This document shows, in pieces, positions 6,716 through 63,997 of a stretch of 64,000 nucleotides of DNA. The stretch covers positions 1-64,000 of the forward strand of contig CANQMN010000009.1 in NCBI GenBank assembly GCA_947624965.1, in the 5' to 3' direction. The first letter of the stretch is position 1. The number at the start of each line of letters is the position of its first letter. The position numbers and the translations under genes were made by a program. The notes beneath the pieces were generated by a model, which was not told where the DNA came from, searched no databases, and saw only the letters and a list, made by a program, of their open reading frames with translations. This stretch comes from an uncultured Clostridia bacterium (GTDB taxonomy: Bacteria; Bacillota; Clostridia; Christensenellales; Borkfalkiaceae).

Positions 6716-7621
6716 TTATCCTTCCCCCTCGCCGAGCGCGAAGGGACTGTGCCCCGTCCGTTCTTCGGACGAGGGCTCTATGCTCGCCGCGCACAGCGCG
6801 CGGAATTTGCCGCGATAACGGCTCTTCGCCCAATCGCAAAGTTCCTTTTCGGGAAAGAGCGCGTACGCCGCGCTTCCCGACCCCGTAATGCCCGCCGCCC
6901 ACGGAGAAAAGCTCCTCGCCTCCGCGAGCGCCGCCGCAACGTCCCCGTCGAGGGAAGCCGCCGCCTCGGCGAGATGGTTTCCGAACAGCCTCGCCGCCCA
7001 CTGAAAGTTCGCGCGAAGTTCCCCGAGCGCGCGCTCCGTACGGCATTCAAACGTATGCCCGAGCTCGTCGTAGCGGCGGTAGCACGCCGCGGACGACACG
7101 CCGCGCGGCGGACAGATGAGGAGAAAGTGGCACTTCGGGAGCCCTTCCAGCTTTTCCACGCGCTCGCCCCGCCCGCGCATGCGGGCGAACCCGCCCGTGA
7201 GCAGGTACCCCGTGTCGCTTCCGAGCTCGTCTGCGAGCGTTTTCAGGGCAACCATGTCCGAGATATCGTAGAGTTTTGCAAGCGCGCGGAGCACGCCCGC
7301 CGCGTCCGCGGAGGAGCCGCCCAAGCCGCCCCCCACGGGGATATTTTTATAGATCGCGATCTCCGCGCCCGCCGTTTGGAAGCGGGAAACGAACGCCTCC
7401 GCCGCGCGCACCGCGTTGTTCTCCTCGGGCGGGATGTTCTCGCTCCCCATGCCGTGCATCGCGACGTTTACAAGCGCGTCCCTCCGCTTCTTTGCGACGA
7501 TGCGGTCCGAAACGTTCACCGTGGTAACGAGGCTGTCTATCGTATGATAGCCGTTTTCAACGCCCGTAACGTCCAATGTGAGGTTGAGTTTCGCGTAAGC
7601 GTTGACCCTCGCCGTATTCAT
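6716..7621 (-). CDS. ispE: 4-diphosphocytidyl-2-C-methyl-D-erythritol kinase
   Basis: This 301-residue GHMP kinase phosphorylates CDP-methylerythritol in the MEP route to isoprenoids. NAYAKLNLTLDV is the typical N-terminus, PVGGGLGGSSADAAG is the ATP-binding loop, and GITGSGSAAYALF the C-terminal glycine motif. MNTARVN was chosen as start; an ATG nine bases upstream is an alternative, and no clear RBS exists for either. Near veg and a SipL-like gene, ispE keeps part of the order found near the origin of Bacillus and clostridia (veg-ispE region). The next gene begins 5 bp downstream. Confidence 0.93.
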   Translation of the reverse strand: MNTARVNAYAKLNLTLDVTGVENGYHTIDSLVTTVNVSDRIVAKKRRDALVNVAMHGMGSENIPPEENNAVRAAEAFVSRFQTAGAEIAIYKNIPVGGGLGGSSADAAGVLRALAKLYDISDMVALKTLADELGSDTGYLLTGGFARMRGRGERVEKLEGLPKCHFLLICPPRGVSSAACYRRYDELGHTFECRTERALGELRANFQWAARLFGNHLAEAAASLDGDVAAALAEARSFSPWAAGITGSGSAAYALFPEKELCDWAKSRYRGKFRALCAASIEPSSEERTGHSPFALGEGEG

Positions 7622-7726
7622 GCTTCGCATTATATCATATTTTTTTGCGCAATGCAAGGATTCCGAAGAAAATCCCGCGCCGTTCGCCGCCGCGGGCGGA
7701 AAACCGCAAAACTTTGTTCAAAACGC

Positions 7727-7757
7727 TTGACAACCGTACGGGCGAATGGAGTATAAT
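7727..7757 (+). promoter_or_regulatory. Promoter of the lipoprotein gene
   Basis: TTGACA (7727-7732) and TATAAT (7752-7757) with a 19-bp spacer, followed by AAGGAG at 7774-7779, seven bases before the ATG at 7787. The spacer is longer than ideal, but both hexamers are exact. Confidence 0.75.
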
Positions 7758-7786
7758 GGAGGAAATCACAGATAAGGAGAGAAATT

Positions 7787-8905
7787 ATGAAAAAACAGAT
7801 CGCAGTCTTTCTTTCCGCCCTCATGCTGATCGGCGCGGCGTTGAGCTTCGCGGGTTGCGGCGGGAATTACAGCGAAACGTTCCGCGGCAAACTTTCCGCG
7901 GACACCTATGAGACGACGGACACGGCGGCGGCAGCCTTCCTCGAAAACGAGATCGCGGCTTCCGATACGTCGGTCTCCTTCCTCTCGTATACCAAGACGG
8001 AGGACATAACCGACGAAGAGCTCGCGGCGTTCGACCTCGGCGAAGTCAAGACAGAGGACATCGCGGCGAAGGAGTGGGGCAAGATCGAATACCGCGCGGC
8101 GGCGACGTCCGCTTCTTCCCTCGCCGAACAGTCCGAAGGGACGCTGACGGCGACGGTCGGCATGTTCAAGATCGGGGACGCCTACCGCTACTTCGTACCC
8201 GTTGCGGGCACGGGCGAGATGATCTCCAAGAGCTATTTCGAGAGCGTGTTCGACGCGGAAAAATACAAGAACTGCACCACGGATTACGAGATGACGCTCG
8301 AATACGAATTCTCCGTGGGCGGACAGTCGATGGACATGGAAATGGACCTCGACGTCACCCAGAAGATCACCGAGACGGCGGCGATGATAGACATGGAGAT
8401 CGTGGTGAGCATGAAGGGACAGGGCAATGCGAAAACGAATTACACCTTCTACTTGGTGAACCACGAAAATTCCGTCGTCGCGTACATGGAAAACGGGGGC
8501 GTTTGGCAGTCCGCTTCCCTTCCGGAACTCTCTTCGTGGGATAAGCTCTACGAGATGGAGCTCAAAGATTTCGTCGACCACAGCTATTTCGAGAAGACTT
8601 CGACGGGCTTCAAACTCGCGCCCATCAAGTTCGACAAGTACATCAGGAATTATTTCGCGGCGGCGAACGATTCGACGTTCGATTTCGACATCGCCGCAAA
8701 CGCGGAACTGTCCGGGGAAGCCACCTATTTTGTGACCGAGGGCAGGCTGTCCAAGGCGACGGTCAAGCTCTCCGCCGACTTCTCGGAGCAGAGCGGCGGA
8801 TATCTGTTGGAAGCGAACGTGAGCACTTCCGCCTCCAACAAGTTCTATGATTTCGGCTCGACGAAAGTGGAGCTCCCTTCGGGGCTTCGGGAGATCGTCG
8901 GTTGA
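7787..8905 (+). CDS. Hypothetical secreted lipoprotein
   Basis: This 372-residue protein has a type II signal peptide: MKKQ, a hydrophobic run, and the lipobox SFAGC (Cys at about residue 24), so it should be lipid-anchored outside the cell. The mature part is rich in acidic residues, T and S, with repeated strands (EMTLEYEFSVG, MDMEMDLDVTQK) that suggest a beta-sheet fold. I see no catalytic motif and do not recognise the family. It is one of few plus-strand genes in this part of the window, with its own strong promoter, RBS and terminator, so it is a single-gene unit. Confidence 0.85.
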   Translation: MKKQIAVFLSALMLIGAALSFAGCGGNYSETFRGKLSADTYETTDTAAAAFLENEIAASDTSVSFLSYTKTEDITDEELAAFDLGEVKTEDIAAKEWGKIEYRAAATSASSLAEQSEGTLTATVGMFKIGDAYRYFVPVAGTGEMISKSYFESVFDAEKYKNCTTDYEMTLEYEFSVGGQSMDMEMDLDVTQKITETAAMIDMEIVVSMKGQGNAKTNYTFYLVNHENSVVAYMENGGVWQSASLPELSSWDKLYEMELKDFVDHSYFEKTSTGFKLAPIKFDKYIRNYFAAANDSTFDFDIAANAELSGEATYFVTEGRLSKATVKLSADFSEQSGGYLLEANVSTSASNKFYDFGSTKVELPSGLREIVG

Positions 8906-11312: not shown

Positions 11313-13868
<2,556 letters not shown>

Positions 13869-14116
13869 TTTCGGCTCCTTTTATGAATGATGGTGCGTTA
13901 CGGGGAGATGAGGACGACCCCCTCCCCTACCCCTTACGAACGGGGCAAGAGAAATAAATTCACGGCGCGGAGCAGGGTCTCCCTGCGGAGCGCACCTAAT
14001 TGGGCGAGCCCTGTCGCCTTATTGTCTAAACAAAACGCTTTTCGCAGTGAACATGTTTATGCAGGAGGAGGGTTCGCTCGCGCAATTCTTTTCAACGCAA
14101 AGAATTGCGCGAAATT
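13869..14116. repeat. gyrB-gyrA spacer with a partial copy of the structured repeat
   Basis: Bases about 13962-14036 match the left part of the 160-bp repeat: GCGCGGAGCAGGGTCTCCCTGCGG, AGCGCACCTAATT, then a third version of the variable hairpin, GGCGA-gccctg-TCGCC, and TTATTGTCTAAACAAAA. Next to it, near 13918-13942, is a CCCTCCCCTACCCCTTACGAACGGGG palindrome. The right half of the repeat is missing. The gap separates two genes that usually lie almost touching. Confidence 0.65.
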
Positions 14117-16030
14117 TCAGATATCCAAATCGGTTACCAACGTCGCATTTTCCTCGATGAACTGACGGCGCAGGGACGGGCTCTCCCCCATGAGCATGGA
14201 GAACATCTTGTCCGCCTCCATCGCGTCCTTCATGCTCACGCGGATGAGCGTGCGCGTGGAGGGATCCATCGTCGTCGTCCAGAGCTGTTCGGTGCTCATC
14301 TCGCCAAGCCCCTTGTAGCGTTGGTATTCCACCTTGTTGTTGTTCGCGGCGTCGTACGCCGTCTTTTCCTCCTCGGTGTAGAGGTAGACGTCCTCCTTGC
14401 CCTTTACGCTCGCCTTGTAGAGCGGGGGCATGGCGGAATACACGTGCCCGTGCTCGATGAGCGGACGCATATAGCGGAAGAGGAAGGTGAGAAGAAGGAT
14501 ACGGATATGCGAGCCGTCTACATCGGCATCCGTCATGGAAATAATTCTATCGTAGCGCAGTTTGCTCTCGTCGAAGTCGTCCAAAATGCCGCATCCGAAC
14601 GCCGTGATCATCGCCTTGATCTCCGCGTTTTCGAGGACGCGGTTGAGCCGCACCTTCTCGACGTTGAGAATTTTACCGCGGAGCGGCAGGATCGCCTGAA
14701 ATCTTCTGTCCCGTCCCTGCTTTGCCGTGCCGCCTGCCGAATCGCCCTCGACGATGTAGATCTCGCACAGCTCGGGTCTCTTGTCCGAACAGTCGGCGAG
14801 CTTGCCGGGGAGCGTCGTCGTTTCGAGCACGCCCTTTCTCCGCGTGAGTTCGCGCGCGGAGCGCGCCGCATCGCGCGCCTTCTGCGCCGTAATGCACCGC
14901 AGAACGAGTTCGCGCGCCTCGGAGGGATGTTCTTCGAGGTATTCTCCCAGCCGCTCCGCGACGCACTTGGAGACGAAGGGACGGATGAAGGAGTTGTTGA
15001 GTTTGTCCTTGGTCTGCGACTCGAACTGCGCGTTTTCGAGCTTGACGGAGACGACCGCCGTGATGCCCTCGCGCACGTCCTCGCCCGTGAGCCTGTCGCT
15101 CTCTTTGAGCACGCCGAGCTTCTTGCCCGCGTCGTTGATGACCTTGGTGAGCGCGAGTTTGAGTCCCTCCACGTGCGTGCCGCCGTCGATGGTGTTCACG
15201 TTGTTCGCGTACGAATAGATGACCTCGTTGTAGCCGTCGTTGTATTGCAGGGCGACTTCGCAGACGGTGGTGTCCTCCTGCGCCTCGAAATAGAGGGGTT
15301 CCGGAAAGAGCGTCGTCGAACTGCTGTTGAGTTCGGAGACGAGCTCGCGGATCCCGCCCTCATAACAAAACGTATCCGAGCGGGGCTTCTCGCCGCGGAG
15401 GTCTGTGAGCGTGATGGAGAGCCCCTTGTTGAGGAAGGCGAGCTCCTTCAAGCGGATTTTGAGCGTATCGTATTTGAATACGGTGGTCTCGAAGATCTCC
15501 GCATCGGGATAGAAGGTAACCTTCGTGCCCGTCTTTTCCGTGTCGCCCACGATGGCGAGCGGGCGCTGGGGAACGCCGCGGTTGTAGATCTGTTTATAGA
15601 CGTGCCCGTTCTGGTAGATCTCCGCTTCCAGCCATTCGGAGAGCGCGTTCACCGCCTTTACGCCCACGCCGTGCAGACCGCTCGACACCTTGTAGCCCGA
15701 GTCCCCGCCGAATTTTCCGCCCGCGTTCACCTTGGTGAACACGACTTCCACGGTGGAGATCCCCTCTTTGGGGTGGATCTCGGTGGGAATGCCCCTGCCG
15801 TTGTCCTCCACGGTACAGCTACCGTCTGCGTTGATCGTAACGTCCACGCGGTCGCAGTAGCCCGCGAGCGCCTCGTCGATGGAGTTGTCCACGACCTCGC
15901 TGACGAGGTGATGGAGCCCCTTTTCGTCCGTGGAGCTGATGTACATGCCGGGACGCTTCCGGATGTGTTCGAGCCCGTCGAGGACCTGAATTTGTTCCGC
16001 GCCGTAGGCGGTTTCCACTTTTTCAGACAT
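14117..16030 (-). CDS. gyrB: DNA gyrase subunit B
   Basis: This 637-residue ATPase subunit of gyrase has the GHKL motifs (EVVDNSIDEALAG, VEDNGRGIPTEIH, SSGLHGVGVKAVNALS), the transducer lysine region, and a Toprim domain with EGDSAGGTAKQGRDR and MTDADVDGSHIR for Mg2+. It ends with QRYKGLGEMSTEQLW-type sequence, as expected. MSEKVETAYG is the start because AGGAGAA lies six bases upstream; the ORF above it runs into the GC-repeat leader. It heads the gyrB-gyrA unit. In many bacteria this pair follows dnaA-dnaN-recF; here it is 46 kb away from dnaN. Confidence 0.97.
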   Translation of the reverse strand: MSEKVETAYGAEQIQVLDGLEHIRKRPGMYISSTDEKGLHHLVSEVVDNSIDEALAGYCDRVDVTINADGSCTVEDNGRGIPTEIHPKEGISTVEVVFTKVNAGGKFGGDSGYKVSSGLHGVGVKAVNALSEWLEAEIYQNGHVYKQIYNRGVPQRPLAIVGDTEKTGTKVTFYPDAEIFETTVFKYDTLKIRLKELAFLNKGLSITLTDLRGEKPRSDTFCYEGGIRELVSELNSSSTTLFPEPLYFEAQEDTTVCEVALQYNDGYNEVIYSYANNVNTIDGGTHVEGLKLALTKVINDAGKKLGVLKESDRLTGEDVREGITAVVSVKLENAQFESQTKDKLNNSFIRPFVSKCVAERLGEYLEEHPSEARELVLRCITAQKARDAARSARELTRRKGVLETTTLPGKLADCSDKRPELCEIYIVEGDSAGGTAKQGRDRRFQAILPLRGKILNVEKVRLNRVLENAEIKAMITAFGCGILDDFDESKLRYDRIISMTDADVDGSHIRILLLTFLFRYMRPLIEHGHVYSAMPPLYKASVKGKEDVYLYTEEEKTAYDAANNNKVEYQRYKGLGEMSTEQLWTTTMDPSTRTLIRVSMKDAMEADKMFSMLMGESPSLRRQFIEENATLVTDLDI

Positions 16031-16057
16031 AGCTTCTCCTTTTTTTGAAGGCCTTCT

Positions 16058-16092
16058 CGCGCGTGCGCGCATAATGCGCGCGCGTGCGCGCG
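16058..16092. promoter_or_regulatory. Alternating purine-pyrimidine palindrome in the gyrB leader
   Basis: The leader between the gyrB promoter and RBS contains about 35 bp of CG/CA/TG alternation, centred on GCGCGCATAATGCGCGC. Alternating purine-pyrimidine tracts can adopt Z-DNA and perfect palindromes can form cruciforms under negative supercoiling; in RNA the tract is a strong hairpin. Confidence 0.55.
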
Positions 16093-16103
16093 TCGTTGAG
16101 GAC

Positions 16104-16132
16104 ATTATAACACAAGCCCCGTGAAAAGTAAA
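16104..16132 (-). promoter_or_regulatory. Promoter of gyrB (extended -10)
   Basis: TTTACT (16127-16132), 17 bp, TATAAT (16104-16109), with TGT directly before the -10 on the minus strand (TGTTATAAT). The transcript would start near 16097 and carry a leader of about 67 nt. Confidence 0.75.
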
Positions 16133-17156: not shown

Positions 17157-18546
17157 CCTTTGCCCGCCTGTAATAGCCGCGCCATTCCTCGTCCGAGAGC
17201 GCGTTCGGATCCTTGCCGTCCGAAAGCACGAGCGCCTCGAACGCCGTATACCGCGCTTGCACCTTTTTCACCGCATCGAGGAGGGACATCTCGCAGTCTG
17301 CCCCGACGTATCTGCCGAGCCACGCCATGCACATCAAAACGTCGCCGAGCTCGTCCGAGACCGCCGCCTTGTCGCCCGCGGCGAACGCCGCCATGAGCTC
17401 CGCATATTCCTCCCGCAGCTTCTTTTCGATATTTTCGCGCGAACAAAAATCCCAGCCGCCCTTTGCAACGCGCTTTGCGATCTTCTGCGCCCTCAAAAGG
17501 GCGGGGAAGCACGCGGGCACGTCGTTCACGGCGTCCGAATAGGTCGTCTGGTGCTTCTCCGTCATCTTGTTCTTTTCCCATACAAAGAGCGCGCCCTCCG
17601 CGTTTTGCGCCCTGTCCTTCCCGAACACGTGGGTGTGCCGCGTGATGAGTTTCAGGCAGACTTCGGTGAGGACGTCCCCCATCGTGAAGTTGCCCCGCTC
17701 CTCCTCCATGAGCGTGTGGAACGCCGCCTGCATGATGACGTCGCCCGCCTCCTCGCGCATCTTCTCGGGGTCGTCCTTGTCGATGGCGTCCACGAGCTCG
17801 TACGCCTCCTCGATGCAGTTGATGCGGATGCTCTCGTGCGTCTGCGCCCTGTCCCACGGACAGCCGTCGGGCGCGCGCAAAAGGCGCAAAATGGCGAGGA
17901 AATCTTCGAGGTCGAACCGCTTCTTTTCGAGGAGAGGGGTATCGTAGACGACGAGAGCACAGCCCGCGCCGTACGCCTTCTGCCTGTCCGCCTCGTAGAG
18001 CGGGAGCTTGGACAGCGTATCCCCGTTTATGTAGGCGCAGGGAGCTTCGTCGCCGAACTTCTCCGCGAGCGCGAGCTTGACGTCGCCCGCCGTCTCGCGG
18101 CTGTCGATATCGTACACGACGAGGGGGAGCGCGAGCTTCCTCTCCGCGACGTCGTACGCGGAGACCGCCGTATACGTTCCGCACAGCCCCGCGCGCGCCG
18201 CGGCGCGCGAGGACTTGCTCACGCCCTCGACGACCGCCGCGCCGCCCTGCACGAGGAGCGCGGCGGCGCGGTCCTCGAACACGCCGCCGTCCACGCAGTA
18301 GCAGAGGGAGCACCCCTTCGCCCGCGCGCGCACTTCCCGCGCGAGATTTTTGGCGAGCGTATCGTAATTGCGGCTCCGCTCATAGACGGGATCCAGCGAT
18401 TCAAACGGGATCCCCGCCTCGCGCAACCCCTCTGCCGAGGGGAGCGTCGCGGTGCGCAGGAGCACCTTGTCCGCGCGCAAGAGCGTCTCCTTCGCGCGCG
18501 CCGTCAAATCCCCCTTCTCCGTTCCCAGCCCGACGATCGTTATCAT
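17140..18546 (-). CDS. yabN: YabN-type tetrapyrrole methylase/MazG pyrophosphohydrolase fusion
   Basis: This 468-residue protein joins two domains. Residues 1-220 form a SAM-dependent tetrapyrrole (corrin/porphyrin) methylase fold (MITIVGLGTEKGDLT, YCVDGGVFED). Residues 230-468 form a MazG NTP pyrophosphohydrolase with GCPWDRAQTHESI and EEAYELVDAID, plus a second EELGD-like helix pair (DELGDVLMCMAW). MazG removes aberrant NTPs; the methylase part has no known substrate. MITIVGLG was chosen as start over an upstream extension. The order spoVT-spoVB-yabN is the same as in B. subtilis. The ATG lies where a one-base-longer A-run would let spoVB stop in an ATGA overlap. Confidence 0.9.
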   Translation of the reverse strand: MITIVGLGTEKGDLTARAKETLLRADKVLLRTATLPSAEGLREAGIPFESLDPVYERSRNYDTLAKNLAREVRARAKGCSLCYCVDGGVFEDRAAALLVQGGAAVVEGVSKSSRAAARAGLCGTYTAVSAYDVAERKLALPLVVYDIDSRETAGDVKLALAEKFGDEAPCAYINGDTLSKLPLYEADRQKAYGAGCALVVYDTPLLEKKRFDLEDFLAILRLLRAPDGCPWDRAQTHESIRINCIEEAYELVDAIDKDDPEKMREEAGDVIMQAAFHTLMEEERGNFTMGDVLTEVCLKLITRHTHVFGKDRAQNAEGALFVWEKNKMTEKHQTTYSDAVNDVPACFPALLRAQKIAKRVAKGGWDFCSRENIEKKLREEYAELMAAFAAGDKAAVSDELGDVLMCMAWLGRYVGADCEMSLLDAVKKVQARYTAFEALVLSDGKDPNALSDEEWRGYYRRAKDVTHA

Positions 18547-60569: not shown

Positions 60570-61025
60570 TCAGAGGAATATGACTTCGACGCCCTTTTGT
60601 TTGGCGTAGTTTACGGTATACGCCGTGCCCCCCGTCTCCTTCGTGCAGTAGGCGAGCACGACGTCGCAGCGGTCCACCATATAGCGGTCCCGCGCGAGAT
60701 AACAGCCGTTGCGGAAACTCGGAAAGAGCACCGTCTTTTCGTCGCACCACGCGAGCAGTTCGCGATATTTTTTCTTTTCTGCCGCGCCGAAGCGCGCTTC
60801 CTGCCCCTCGTACGGGATACAGGCGCGCAAAAAGATGCGCTTTCTCTGTTTGTACTCGACGAGCATGGCGAGCGCTTCCAAATCGAACCCCGTCGCCATG
60901 CCGCAGAGAAAGGTGTCCGCGCCGCTGTCGATGAGGGCGCCGAGCGCATCGTGCAGCGCGTTCCGATCGAAATTTTCGGGAAGATCGCGGTGCCCCGTGA
61001 GCGCGCAGACTTTCATAGCGGACAT
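60570..61025 (-). CDS. YpsA/DUF1273 SLOG-family protein
   Basis: This 151-residue Rossmann-like protein shows KVCALTGHRDLPENFD at the start and ADTFLCGMATGFDLEALAML, ARDRYMVDRCDVVLAYCTKETGGTAYTVNYAKQKG, the SLOG pattern. YpsA relatives in Bacillus affect cell division and oxidative stress and are thought to bind a nucleotide-like ligand; the ligand is not known. GGGAGGGAG lies before the ATG. It overlaps the end of rsmG by 13 bp and so is coupled to it. Confidence 0.88.
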   Translation of the reverse strand: MSAMKVCALTGHRDLPENFDRNALHDALGALIDSGADTFLCGMATGFDLEALAMLVEYKQRKRIFLRACIPYEGQEARFGAAEKKKYRELLAWCDEKTVLFPSFRNGCYLARDRYMVDRCDVVLAYCTKETGGTAYTVNYAKQKGVEVIFL

Positions 61026-61702
61026 TTTTTCTCCCTCCCCTGTCCGCGCGGATATTTTTCGGGCGTGCGCGCCGTCTTCTTCACGGCGACGAGTGTGCGT
61101 ATCCCGTAGTTTTCGGGAAGTTCGTAGCGGACGGACGTCTCCTCTCCCCCCAAGACGGAAAACGCGCGCCGCGCTTCCGAGATCTCTTCTTCCGCGTCCC
61201 CCTTGTAGGCGAGAAAGACGCCGCCCCGCCGCACGAAGGGCATGCAGTACTCCGCCAGCGTATTGAGCCGCGCCACCGCGCGGGCGCAACAGACGTCGTA
61301 CTTTTCGCGGTGCGCGGGATCCTTTGCGAGATTTTCCGCCCGCGCGTTGAAAACAGCCGCGTCGAGCGCGAGCTTTTCCGCGGCGATTTTGAGAAATTCA
61401 CACTTTTTCCCCGTGCTCTCCACAAGCGCGAAATGCAGATCTTCCCGCACGATCATGAGGGGAATTGAGGGAAACCCCGCGCCCGAACCCACTTCCAACG
61501 CCTTCGCGCCGCGCGGAAAATAGGCTTCCCCCGCCAAACTGTCGAGAAAATGTTTATAAAACACGTCCCGCTCCTCCGTTACGGCGGTGAGATTGTACCT
61601 TCCGTTGTACTCCGTGAGGAGGCGGAAGAAGAGGTCGAATTTCTCCTTTTTCCGCAAAATTTGTTCCTTTAACGCGCCGAAATCGGGCAAAACCGCAATC
61701 AT
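61013..61702 (-). CDS. rsmG: 16S rRNA (guanine-527-N7)-methyltransferase
   Basis: This 229-residue enzyme (GidB) methylates G527 of 16S rRNA. YNGRYNLTAVTEERDVFYKHFLDSL and ALEVGSGAGFPSIPLMI (SAM loop) are the family signatures; VCCARAVARLNTLAEYCMPFVRRGG follows. MIAVLPDFGALKEQ was chosen as start because a TATAAT ends 6 nt before it, which makes the mRNA leaderless; the long ORF above runs through the origin region. rsmG near oriC is a conserved bacterial arrangement. It is the last leftward gene before the origin. Confidence 0.95.
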   Translation of the reverse strand: MIAVLPDFGALKEQILRKKEKFDLFFRLLTEYNGRYNLTAVTEERDVFYKHFLDSLAGEAYFPRGAKALEVGSGAGFPSIPLMIVREDLHFALVESTGKKCEFLKIAAEKLALDAAVFNARAENLAKDPAHREKYDVCCARAVARLNTLAEYCMPFVRRGGVFLAYKGDAEEEISEARRAFSVLGGEETSVRYELPENYGIRTLVAVKKTARTPEKYPRGQGREKKCPL

Positions 61703-61739: not shown

Positions 61740-62045
61740 GAAATGTGGAAAAAGGAATTTTTCTTTCCACATTTCACGGAATTTTGAGGATAACGTTCCC
61801 GCGCGGGACGGATATTTTCGCGCTTGAAAATTTTTTCCGCGCGGAAAGTAACATTTCCCCATTTTCTCCACCTTCTTTTCCACCCTTCCTCCACAGTTTT
61901 ATTTTCTCTCCGCTTTTTTCAAAACAGCGGAAAATCACTTGAAATTTTCCTCGTTTTTCGCTATAATAGAGAAGGTCGGAAGGGAGAAGAAAAAACTCTC
62001 CACAAATCCACAGTCCCTATTACTATTACTACTATCGTTACTTAT
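61740..62045. other. Putative replication origin (oriC) with DnaA-trio element
   Basis: CCACA-type DnaA-box-like 9-mers occur as TTTTCCACA (complement of 61744-61752), CTTTCCACA (61763-61771), TTTTCCACC (61876-61884), TCCTCCACA (61887-61895), CTCTCCACA (61996-62004) and AAATCCACA (62004-62012). None is a perfect TTATCCACA. Directly 3' of the last two, after GTCC, comes CTATTACTATTACTACTA (62017-62034): six CTA/TTA triplets, which is 3'-GAT/AAT-5' on the minus strand, the DnaA-trio pattern and orientation. Then AT-rich DNA follows. Genes on both sides read away from here. No cell-cycle data; inference from layout. Confidence 0.7.
61939..61967 (+). promoter_or_regulatory. Promoter of dnaN
   Basis: TTGAAA (61939-61944), 17 bp, TATAAT (61962-61967). 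The transcript leader of about 100 nt passes through the last DnaA-box-like sites and the trio element, so DnaA binding there could affect dnaN expression. Confidence 0.85.
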
Positions 62046-62073
62046 TCTTAAAAAACAAATCAAGGAGATTCTC

Positions 62074-63171
62074 ATGAAATTCGTTTGCGACGGGTTGACC
62101 CTCTCCGAAGCGGTCATGAAGGTAAGCAAGGCATGCGCTGTCCGTACGATGGCGCCCGTAATGGAATGCATCAAAATAGGCGCCGAACGCGACGGGGTGA
62201 CCCTCCTCGCGACGGACGGCGAACTCTCCATCCGCAAACAAATCAAGGCGGAAATTTTTGAAGAGGGGGAGATCTGCGTTCCCGGGAAGCTGTTCGCCGA
62301 TTTCATCGGAAAACTCACCGAAGAAGAAATTTCCATCTCCACGGGGGAGAAGGGAATGGAGATAAAGTATCGGGATTCCGCGTCCTATATGCAGACGATC
62401 TCCGCGGACGAATTCCCGCAGATCAACATGCAGGTCGGCGAGGACAGCTTCGTCATGAAACAGGGCGCGCTCAAAAAAATTATCGCTGAGACGACGTTCT
62501 GTTGTGCGCAGGACGATTCCCGTCCCGTCTTGAAGGGATGCCTTCTCGAATTGAAGGACAAGCTCCAAATCACCGCGCTGGACGGCTACCGTCTCGCTCT
62601 CTCCGAGGCGGAGATCCTCTCCAAGAGCGGCGAAAATTCCATCATCTGCCCCGCGCGGACGCTGACGGAGATTGCGAGAATGCTTCCCGGCGAGGAGGAA
62701 GAGATCACGCTCTACACGCAGGGCGGCATGCTCCTCGTGAGCTATGAGGGGACGGTCGTCGTCTCCCGCCTCTACCAGGGAGATTTCGTGAAGAAGGAGA
62801 ACGTCATCCCCTCCCGCTTCGCGACGACGGTCTCCCTTTCCAAGGAAGAACTCATCGCGAGCGTGGAGCGTGCGGCGATCCTCATCCGCGGGGACAAAAA
62901 CAACCTCGTAACGCTCGAAATCGGCGGCGGGACGGTGCGCATCTCCTCCGCTTCCGAGATAGGAACGGTCGCGGAGACCATCTCCGCGGAGACGGACGGC
63001 GTGGATCTTTCGATCTCCATGAACGCGAAATATCTGCTCGATTCCCTCCGCGCGCTCACCGAGGAGGAGGTAACCATCTCCTTCAACGGCGCGATCTCCC
63101 CCTTTATTCTGCAAAATAAATGCCAAAAAGAGAGTTTATATCTCATTTTGCCCGTCAGAAACAACGCATAA
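62074..63171 (+). CDS. dnaN: DNA polymerase III beta subunit (sliding clamp)
   Basis: This 365-residue protein is the ring-forming clamp that tethers DNA polymerase III. It has the three-fold repeat of the family: MKFVCDGLTLSEAVMKVSKACA opens domain 1, QGALKKIIAETTFCCAQDDSRPVLKGCLLEL domain 2, and the end YLILPVRNNA matches the family's final LILPVR. CAAGGAG precedes the ATG; the earlier in-frame codons are leader. dnaA, which normally sits just upstream, is missing; instead dnaN follows the putative origin directly and is followed by rpmH. Confidence 0.97.
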   Translation: MKFVCDGLTLSEAVMKVSKACAVRTMAPVMECIKIGAERDGVTLLATDGELSIRKQIKAEIFEEGEICVPGKLFADFIGKLTEEEISISTGEKGMEIKYRDSASYMQTISADEFPQINMQVGEDSFVMKQGALKKIIAETTFCCAQDDSRPVLKGCLLELKDKLQITALDGYRLALSEAEILSKSGENSIICPARTLTEIARMLPGEEEEITLYTQGGMLLVSYEGTVVVSRLYQGDFVKKENVIPSRFATTVSLSKEELIASVERAAILIRGDKNNLVTLEIGGGTVRISSASEIGTVAETISAETDGVDLSISMNAKYLLDSLRALTEEEVTISFNGAISPFILQNKCQKESLYLILPVRNNA

Positions 63172-63240: not shown

Positions 63241-63375
63241 ATGAAAAGAACGTATCAGCCCAAGAAGAGACAGGCGAGCAAAGTACACGGGTTTCGGAAG
63301 AGAATGGCGTCGCAGGGCGGAAGAAAGACACTGAAAAGAAGAAGAAACAAGGGAAGAAAGCACATCTCCGCATAA
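63241..63375 (+). CDS. rpmH: 50S ribosomal protein L34
   Basis: This 44-residue protein is missing from the ORF track because of its size. It reads [22 protein letters not shown], then [22 protein letters not shown], the standard L34. GACAGGAG precedes the ATG by six bases. It leads the conserved rpmH-rnpA-yidD cluster found beside oriC in most bacteria, where it is usually upstream of dnaA, on the other side of the origin and reading away from it. Confidence 0.98.
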
Positions 63376-63381
63376 CGTTCC

Positions 63382-63735
63382 GTGGAATACAGGCGGCTGA
63401 AAAACAAAAAACGGTTTTCCGCGATTCTCAAAAACGGAAAGCGCGCGTATTCGGAGACGCTCACCCTCGTCTATCTCCCCGCAAAAGAGACGGCGATGGC
63501 GGTCTGCGTGGGGAAAAAGTACGGGAAGAGCGTGCAGAGAAACCGCATCAAGCGGCTGCTCCGCGAAGCGTTCCGCCCCTTTGCGGCGGAAATGAAGCCG
63601 TGCGAAGTCCTGCTCATCCCGAGGGTCGCGGACGCGTATTCGTTCGCCCGCTTTTTTCGGGACGTGGGAAAACTTCTCGGCAGGGAAAAACTGATTGAAA
63701 GTCAACCTCGCAACAATCTTCGCGCAGAACCGTAA
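63382..63735 (+). CDS. rnpA: Ribonuclease P protein component
   Basis: This 117-residue protein assists the RNase P RNA in cutting tRNA 5' leaders. RLKNKKRFSAILKNGKRAYSETL is the N-terminal pattern and GKSVQRNRIKRLLREAFR the RNR signature. The start is GTG at 63382, six bases after rpmH, with no RBS of its own, so it is probably translated by coupling. Its last 41 bases overlap yidD. Confidence 0.95.
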   Translation: MEYRRLKNKKRFSAILKNGKRAYSETLTLVYLPAKETAMAVCVGKKYGKSVQRNRIKRLLREAFRPFAAEMKPCEVLLIPRVADAYSFARFFRDVGKLLGREKLIESQPRNNLRAEP

Positions 63736-63997
63736 GATTCTGCGCCGTTCGGTTTTCAAGCCGTATCTGAAAGCGCTCTGCATACGGCTCATCGTCTTTT
63801 ATCAGAAATATTTTTCCCGCCACACCTGCCTGTACGAGCCGACGTGCTCGGAATATACCAAGCGGTGCATCAACAACTACGGCGTCGTGGCGGGGATCTT
63901 GCTCGGCGCGTGGCGCATTTTGCGGTGCAATCCCTTCTCCAAGGGCGGCATCGATCCCGCGCCCGAAGTGTTCTGGAAACGCAAATGGCTCATATGA
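63695..63997 (+). CDS. yidD: Membrane protein insertion efficiency factor YidD
   Basis: This 100-residue protein has LIVFYQKYFSRHTCLYEPTCSEYTKRCINNYGVVAGILLGAWRILRCNPFSKGGIDPAP, with the three conserved cysteines of YidD. It aids YidC-mediated membrane insertion. The start is TTG at 63695, overlapping rnpA by 41 bp, and no ATG is available before the family core; the 30-residue N-terminal part is unusual for a family of 70-85 residues, so the true start could be later. yidC is expected just beyond the window end. Confidence 0.9.
   Translation: MKVNLATIFAQNRKILRRSVFKPYLKALCIRLIVFYQKYFSRHTCLYEPTCSEYTKRCINNYGVVAGILLGAWRILRCNPFSKGGIDPAPEVFWKRKWLI

Follow-up and report, generated by a model that had tools for sequence, protein, structure and literature searches.

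The question raised by this locus is whether a gap of ~370 bp between two genes that point away from each other, rsmG and dnaN, is the place where the chromosome starts to replicate, given that dnaA lies elsewhere. The gap is situated near the right end of the window (by which we mean the whole analyzed stretch of 64,000 nucleotides, bases 1-64000 of the 84-kb contig C9), in a 1.79-Mb draft genome of 34 contigs from Candidatus Gallimonas, a genus of uncultured gut Clostridia, and its GC content is 39% vs ~60% across the window. The first-pass annotation had proposed here a putative oriC with a DnaA-trio, and the proposal stands on four counts: the module is unique in the genome, it is conserved in the genus, minima of GC skew in six contigs fall at or near it, and no DnaA boxes accompany dnaA. 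We regard the region 61.73-62.06 kb as almost certainly the chromosomal oriC, built on a basal unwinding system (BUS).

The proposal had started from a strand switch at the gap, and the long genes that we identified with Pfam agree with it: those on the left (rsmG, PEPCK, H+-PPase, alaS-like, gltX-like, uvrB, uvrA, gyrB and gyrA) are all on the minus strand, and those on the right, tested to ~79 kb (dnaN, rnpA, yidD, yidC, jag, ftsH and others), are all on the plus strand. The gyrA and gyrB genes are located side by side on the minus strand (window 11313-16105), ~46-50 kb to the left of the origin and apart from recF, which is found with dnaA on a different contig. From left to right, the gap comprises distal boxes, the dnaN promoter, the tandem boxes of the BUS, the GTCC linker, the trios, an AT-rich stretch and the ribosome-binding site of dnaN (Table 1).

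Table 1. Elements of the predicted origin and its flanking genes, in window coordinates; distances refer to box 1 of the BUS
Feature	Coordinates	Strand	Basis or remark
rsmG (gidB), left flank, pointing away from the origin	61013..61702, start codon 61702	-	Pfam GidB, E 4e-47
Distal DnaA box TTTTCCACA (1 mismatch)	61744..61752	-	252 bp upstream of box 1
Distal DnaA box CTTTCCACA (2 mismatches)	61763..61771	+	233 bp upstream of box 1; + boxes of relatives at 229-234
Distal DnaA box TTATCCTCA (1 mismatch)	61785..61793	-	211 bp upstream of box 1; - boxes of relatives at 209-212
Three tandem weak DnaA boxes: 61864 TTCTCCACC, 61876 TTTTCCACC, 61887 TCCTCCACA	61864..61895	+	132, 120 and 109 bp upstream of box 1
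Sigma70-type dnaN promoter: TTGAAA 61939-61944, 17 bp, TATAAT 61962-61967	61939..61967	+	sequence
BUS DnaA box 1 CTCTCCACA	61996..62004	+	genus consensus here TTGTCCACA/TTATCCACA
BUS DnaA box 2 AAATCCACA	62004..62012	+	core TCCAC kept in relatives
4-nt linker GTCC, box 2 to trio	62013..62016	+	sequence
DnaA-trio array CTA TTA CTA TTA CTA CTA (3'-GAT/AAT-5' on the opposite strand)	62017..62034	+	conservation, single genomic locus
AT-rich stretch 3' of the trio, presumed part of the opened region	62035..62060	.	sequence; inference
dnaN (sliding clamp)	62074..63171	+	Pfam DNA_pol3_beta
rpmH, rnpA, yidD, 3' of dnaN, co-oriented	63241..63997	+	Pfam / synteny

According to the published rule for BUS modules, a DnaA box with up to 2 mismatches (a second box with up to 4) is followed within 16 bp by at least 3 consecutive NAN trios, the spacer from the conserved box being typically 10-13 and the middle adenine of each trio lying on the bound strand (PMC8287927). 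In the gap, box 1 and box 2 deviate from TTATCCACA at 2 positions each, the trio follows box 1 after 12 bp and box 2 after 4 bp, and there are six trios with the middle adenine on the bound strand; the six CTA/TTA triplets beside two adjacent boxes were found exactly where they had been reported. The array is the sole run of at least 4 YTA triplets on both strands of the two contigs searched (172 kb), and the composite pattern TCCAC-N0-16-(YTA)4 matches a single locus in the entire 1.79-Mb genome, namely this gap, with 0 matches genome-wide for the reversed pattern used as a control. The gap also holds the further DnaA-box cluster expected of a bacterial oriC: the CCACA-type box-like 9-mers claimed for it comprise 5 CCACA/TGTGG pentamers and 9 sites with up to 2 mismatches to TTATCCACA in 370 bp, vs 0.6 expected from the density on the two contigs (172 kb). 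None of 1000 first-order-Markov shuffles of the gap reached 9 sites, and any other 371-bp stretch on these contigs has at most 4. That the gap lacks a perfect box is also correct, as every box of this species is imperfect with respect to TTATCCACA.

As the first-pass annotation had suggested, we compared the gap in related genomes, using 62 dnaN loci of Gallimonas (the window's own and 61 relatives; L130, a more distant relative, was left out). The trio and its spacing are conserved upstream of dnaN in 61/62 loci. The first trio starts 21 nt after the start of box 1 in 52 loci according to the strict pattern and in all 61 according to a fixed-register score, and this spacing is kept even where box 2 is shifted by one base. 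A looser search, in which box and trio were placed independently, returned 21 nt in 52/59 loci, and the remaining spacings differ by a multiple of three, as would result from a longest triplet run that begins earlier or later. Of the 61 loci, 60, 61, 61, 59 and 59 have T in the middle of the five scored trios, respectively, and the distance from the module to the start codon ranges from 73 to 246 nt across the genus. The surroundings are similarly stable, with rsmG on the left and on the minus strand in 58/62 loci and rpmH and rnpA on the right and on the plus strand in 62/62. Outside Gallimonas, most of the genera and families that we looked at have BUS-like candidates with weaker scores in front of dnaN, whether or not dnaA intervenes. 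The automatic score gave no convincing module in the stretch searched for G087, L169, L189 and L199. In L130 and G087, both from other genera, the four-trio module was not found in the genomes, nor can one be seen immediately in front of dnaN; either the origin may lie at another locus or its trios may be degenerate.

The cumulative GC skew was computed on single contigs of the drafts rather than on a whole chromosome. Six contigs place its minimum 67, 78, 79, 1175, 3377 and 3415 bp away from the BUS (combined p ~2e-8); taken together, they show a skew minimum with a polarity switch at the locus, the window's own contig being weak by itself. The minimum anticipated near 61.9 kb is sharp in relatives, while on the own 84-kb contig, one of the two weakest of the six, it is shallow and lies at 65.4 kb. 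This 3.4-kb offset and the imperfection of all boxes are the two observations that we count against the assignment of oriC.

The distal boxes and the dnaN promoter of Gallimonas are not spaced at random relative to the BUS. Distal boxes on the plus strand (up to 1 mismatch) peak ~95, 108, 119, 131, 141 and 152 bp from box 1, half-turn positions are nearly empty, and the phase coherence of 102 boxes is R 0.70 at 11.2 bp. The weak boxes of the window at 109, 120 and 132 bp fall on the peaks of the genus, within 1.3 bp of the lattice. Likewise, the spacers between TATAAT and box 1 form length classes of 15-18, 26-29, 37-41 and 52 bp (60 species) while appearing unrelated in sequence, and the changes of spacer length are mostly steps of ~10-12 bp. 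We tentatively propose that the whole origin, i.e. the distal boxes together with the dnaN promoter, is kept in helical phase with the BUS and that insertions and deletions are tolerated mainly as whole turns of ~11 bp; at present we would put this at somewhat less than an even chance. A rival explanation, which we consider rather unlikely, is that the ~11-bp phasing reflects only the shared ancestry of box positions, with no constraint acting on them. Positions 108 and 119 are indeed common to many species, and the phase does not recur in the other genera taken together (R 0.23), so that ancestry may explain part of the phasing and we claim the lattice for Gallimonas only. Three results argue against ancestry as the whole explanation: the coherence survives thinning to ~28 divergent species (R 0.70 vs a maximum of 0.40 for random positions); the phase persists once the boxes at the two modal positions are set aside (p 0.004, each distinct position counted once); and ~10 independent entries into the spacer classes on the DnaN tree are phased (p 0.004, events read from the tree by hand). 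Control 5-mers make an unclean null in these comparisons, as two of them, GAAAA and ATTTT, are part of the phased promoter. The promoter-to-BUS distances in other genera (25-29, 16 and 37) agree in phase (R 0.77), these being few cases, picked and read by hand.

The position of the promoter also invites the reading that boxes and trio form only a DnaA-responsive control region or leader of dnaN, the origin being elsewhere. A conserved sigma70-type promoter is found between the distal boxes and the BUS in 59/61 relatives, and the trio, being downstream of it, lies within the dnaN leader, as had been stated for the window. In the 62nd locus, however, the module has parted from dnaN: the genome of L128 has the complete box cluster and the trio TTATCCACATTTCAACAGCCACTATTATTACTATTATTA together, 10 kb upstream of dnaN (G185:C15, BUS 18175-18203, dnaN ~7047-8135) and devoid of the dnaN promoter, which remains in front of dnaN; the separation is apparently due to an inversion that includes the PEPCK gene. 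In L101, the sole promoter found is 3' of the BUS, and the BUS likewise appears to precede the dnaN promoter in several other genera. The position in the leader is thus not a fixed requirement, as the module is outside it in L101, in the L128 genome and in several other genera; from the L128 and L101 layouts we conclude that the module is not kept merely as a dnaN leader. Moreover, a promoter control region would have no need of the trio register, and the GC-skew minima coincide with the locus. We therefore find it highly improbable that the region serves dnaN expression alone.

A gap without a perfect TTATCCACA had led to the suggestion that the DnaA protein of this species recognizes a shifted box, for which we see equally little room. 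Box 1 of the congeners reads TTGTCCACA in 29/61 loci or TTATCCACA in 7/61, the weak boxes of the window sit on the lattice of the genus, and the helix-turn-helix of DnaA keeps GGRDHST, as in the congeners (GGRDH(S/T)T in the genus). In an alignment with B. subtilis DnaA (8btg), Glu183, Asn187 and Arg202 (B. subtilis numbering; for their roles see PMC10721633) are identical, while Ile190 is replaced by Val and Ile193 by Met, i.e. motifs for contacts with both the trio and the box are retained. Shifted recognition was rejected on these grounds, ordinary boxes in the congeners and preserved contact residues in DnaA; judging from the sequences, this is a species with weak boxes where its relatives carry strong ones. 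Throughout Gallimonas, the loop that follows the initiator-specific motif of DnaA (L034:15315-16661) carries a short insertion of a few residues that B. subtilis DnaA lacks; in this species it is 6 residues long.

The dnaA gene itself (Pfam Bac_DnaA, E 1e-63) is at G000:C8:35345, while dnaN is at C9:62074, on a different contig; a recF-like gene lies divergently upstream of dnaA, and mnmG lies downstream of it. In this genome, dnaA adjoins neither oriC nor dnaN, and it was not found near dnaN at any of the 61 relatives' dnaN loci within the flanks examined. Two relatives have both genes on one contig, 144 kb (G041:C7) and 163 kb (G052:C1) apart; in both, dnaA is oriented head-on to the replication fork inferred from the GC skew. 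In several other families of the order dnaA is directly upstream of dnaN, an arrangement seen in 0 of the Borkfalkiaceae genomes listed with both genes. In g22, a genus of the same family (e.g. G137, G148 and G168), the origin gene cluster is rearranged in another way: dnaA follows dnaN on the same strand at a distance of ~5-11 kb. In bacteria dnaA often adjoins oriC, and this general tendency is what would favor an origin beside dnaA at the other locus, a placement that we reject as having next to no chance of being right, because the ~300 bp preceding dnaA in this species contain no DnaA box with up to 1 mismatch, only one marginal site precedes the 15 other Gallimonas dnaA loci, dnaA lies within a constant sign of skew, with no turning point, in G041 and G052, and the cluster of boxes with a trio that the first-pass annotation had named as contrary evidence if present beside dnaA did not turn up, the module pattern being single in the genome.

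We return to the BUS-based oriC upstream of dnaN. By analogy with the B. subtilis system, DnaA binding, duplex opening and looping most likely take place here as well. DnaA would bind box 1 and box 2, be guided onto the trio strand and form an oligomer there, and this oligomer would open the AT-rich duplex toward dnaN. Additional DnaA probably reaches the BUS from the upstream boxes (61744-61895), which would load or deliver it by looping back, and this would explain why the distal boxes occur in helical-turn steps and why the promoter-BUS spacers change by similar steps. Because dnaA is not linked to the origin and sits next to recF and mnmG on a different contig, DnaA would act wholly in trans. 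If the helical register is real, it would constitute evolutionary evidence for an obligatory DnaA loop at an origin served by an unlinked dnaA that has no boxes in front of it, and RNA polymerase at the dnaN promoter could possibly be part of the loop complex.

These results assign a well-supported oriC to a large genus of uncultured gut Clostridia and show that oriC can remain with dnaN while dnaA departs. The ~60 natural variants amount to an experiment on the geometry of the origin that nature has already performed. Judging from them, the distance from box 1 to the trio is fixed, the distal boxes and the promoter move by whole helical turns, and the distance from the trio to the start codon is free. 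The looping model of DnaA delivery thereby becomes testable by comparison.

Our search of the literature on relocation of dnaA or on natural phasing returned nothing directly on point, and the closest known system is incC of B. subtilis oriC (boxes 6/7 and the DnaA-trio), which is also upstream of dnaN and also combines distal boxes with a proximal pair beside the trios (PMC6669920). There, helical phasing was revealed by mutagenesis, in which distal boxes were moved by half turns, and was taken as evidence for a DnaA loop (PMC6669920), whereas here it is seen in natural sequences. The B. subtilis region differs in being located between dnaA and dnaN, while in Gallimonas dnaA is elsewhere and rsmG takes its place; also unlike incC, the origin described here has the dnaN promoter between the distal boxes and the BUS. 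Within the same order, the dnaA-dnaN-linked origins of G025, G028, G031, G034, G038 and G040 have box-plus-trio candidates directly upstream of dnaN, as here, and differ in having dnaA immediately upstream of dnaN. With respect to the BUS predicted in many bacterial origins (PMC8287927), the module itself is no different, and the genus is known from metagenome-assembled genomes of uncultured bacteria. A BUS-type origin is of a known kind; what is new here is the layout unlinked from dnaA and the helical register in natural sequences.
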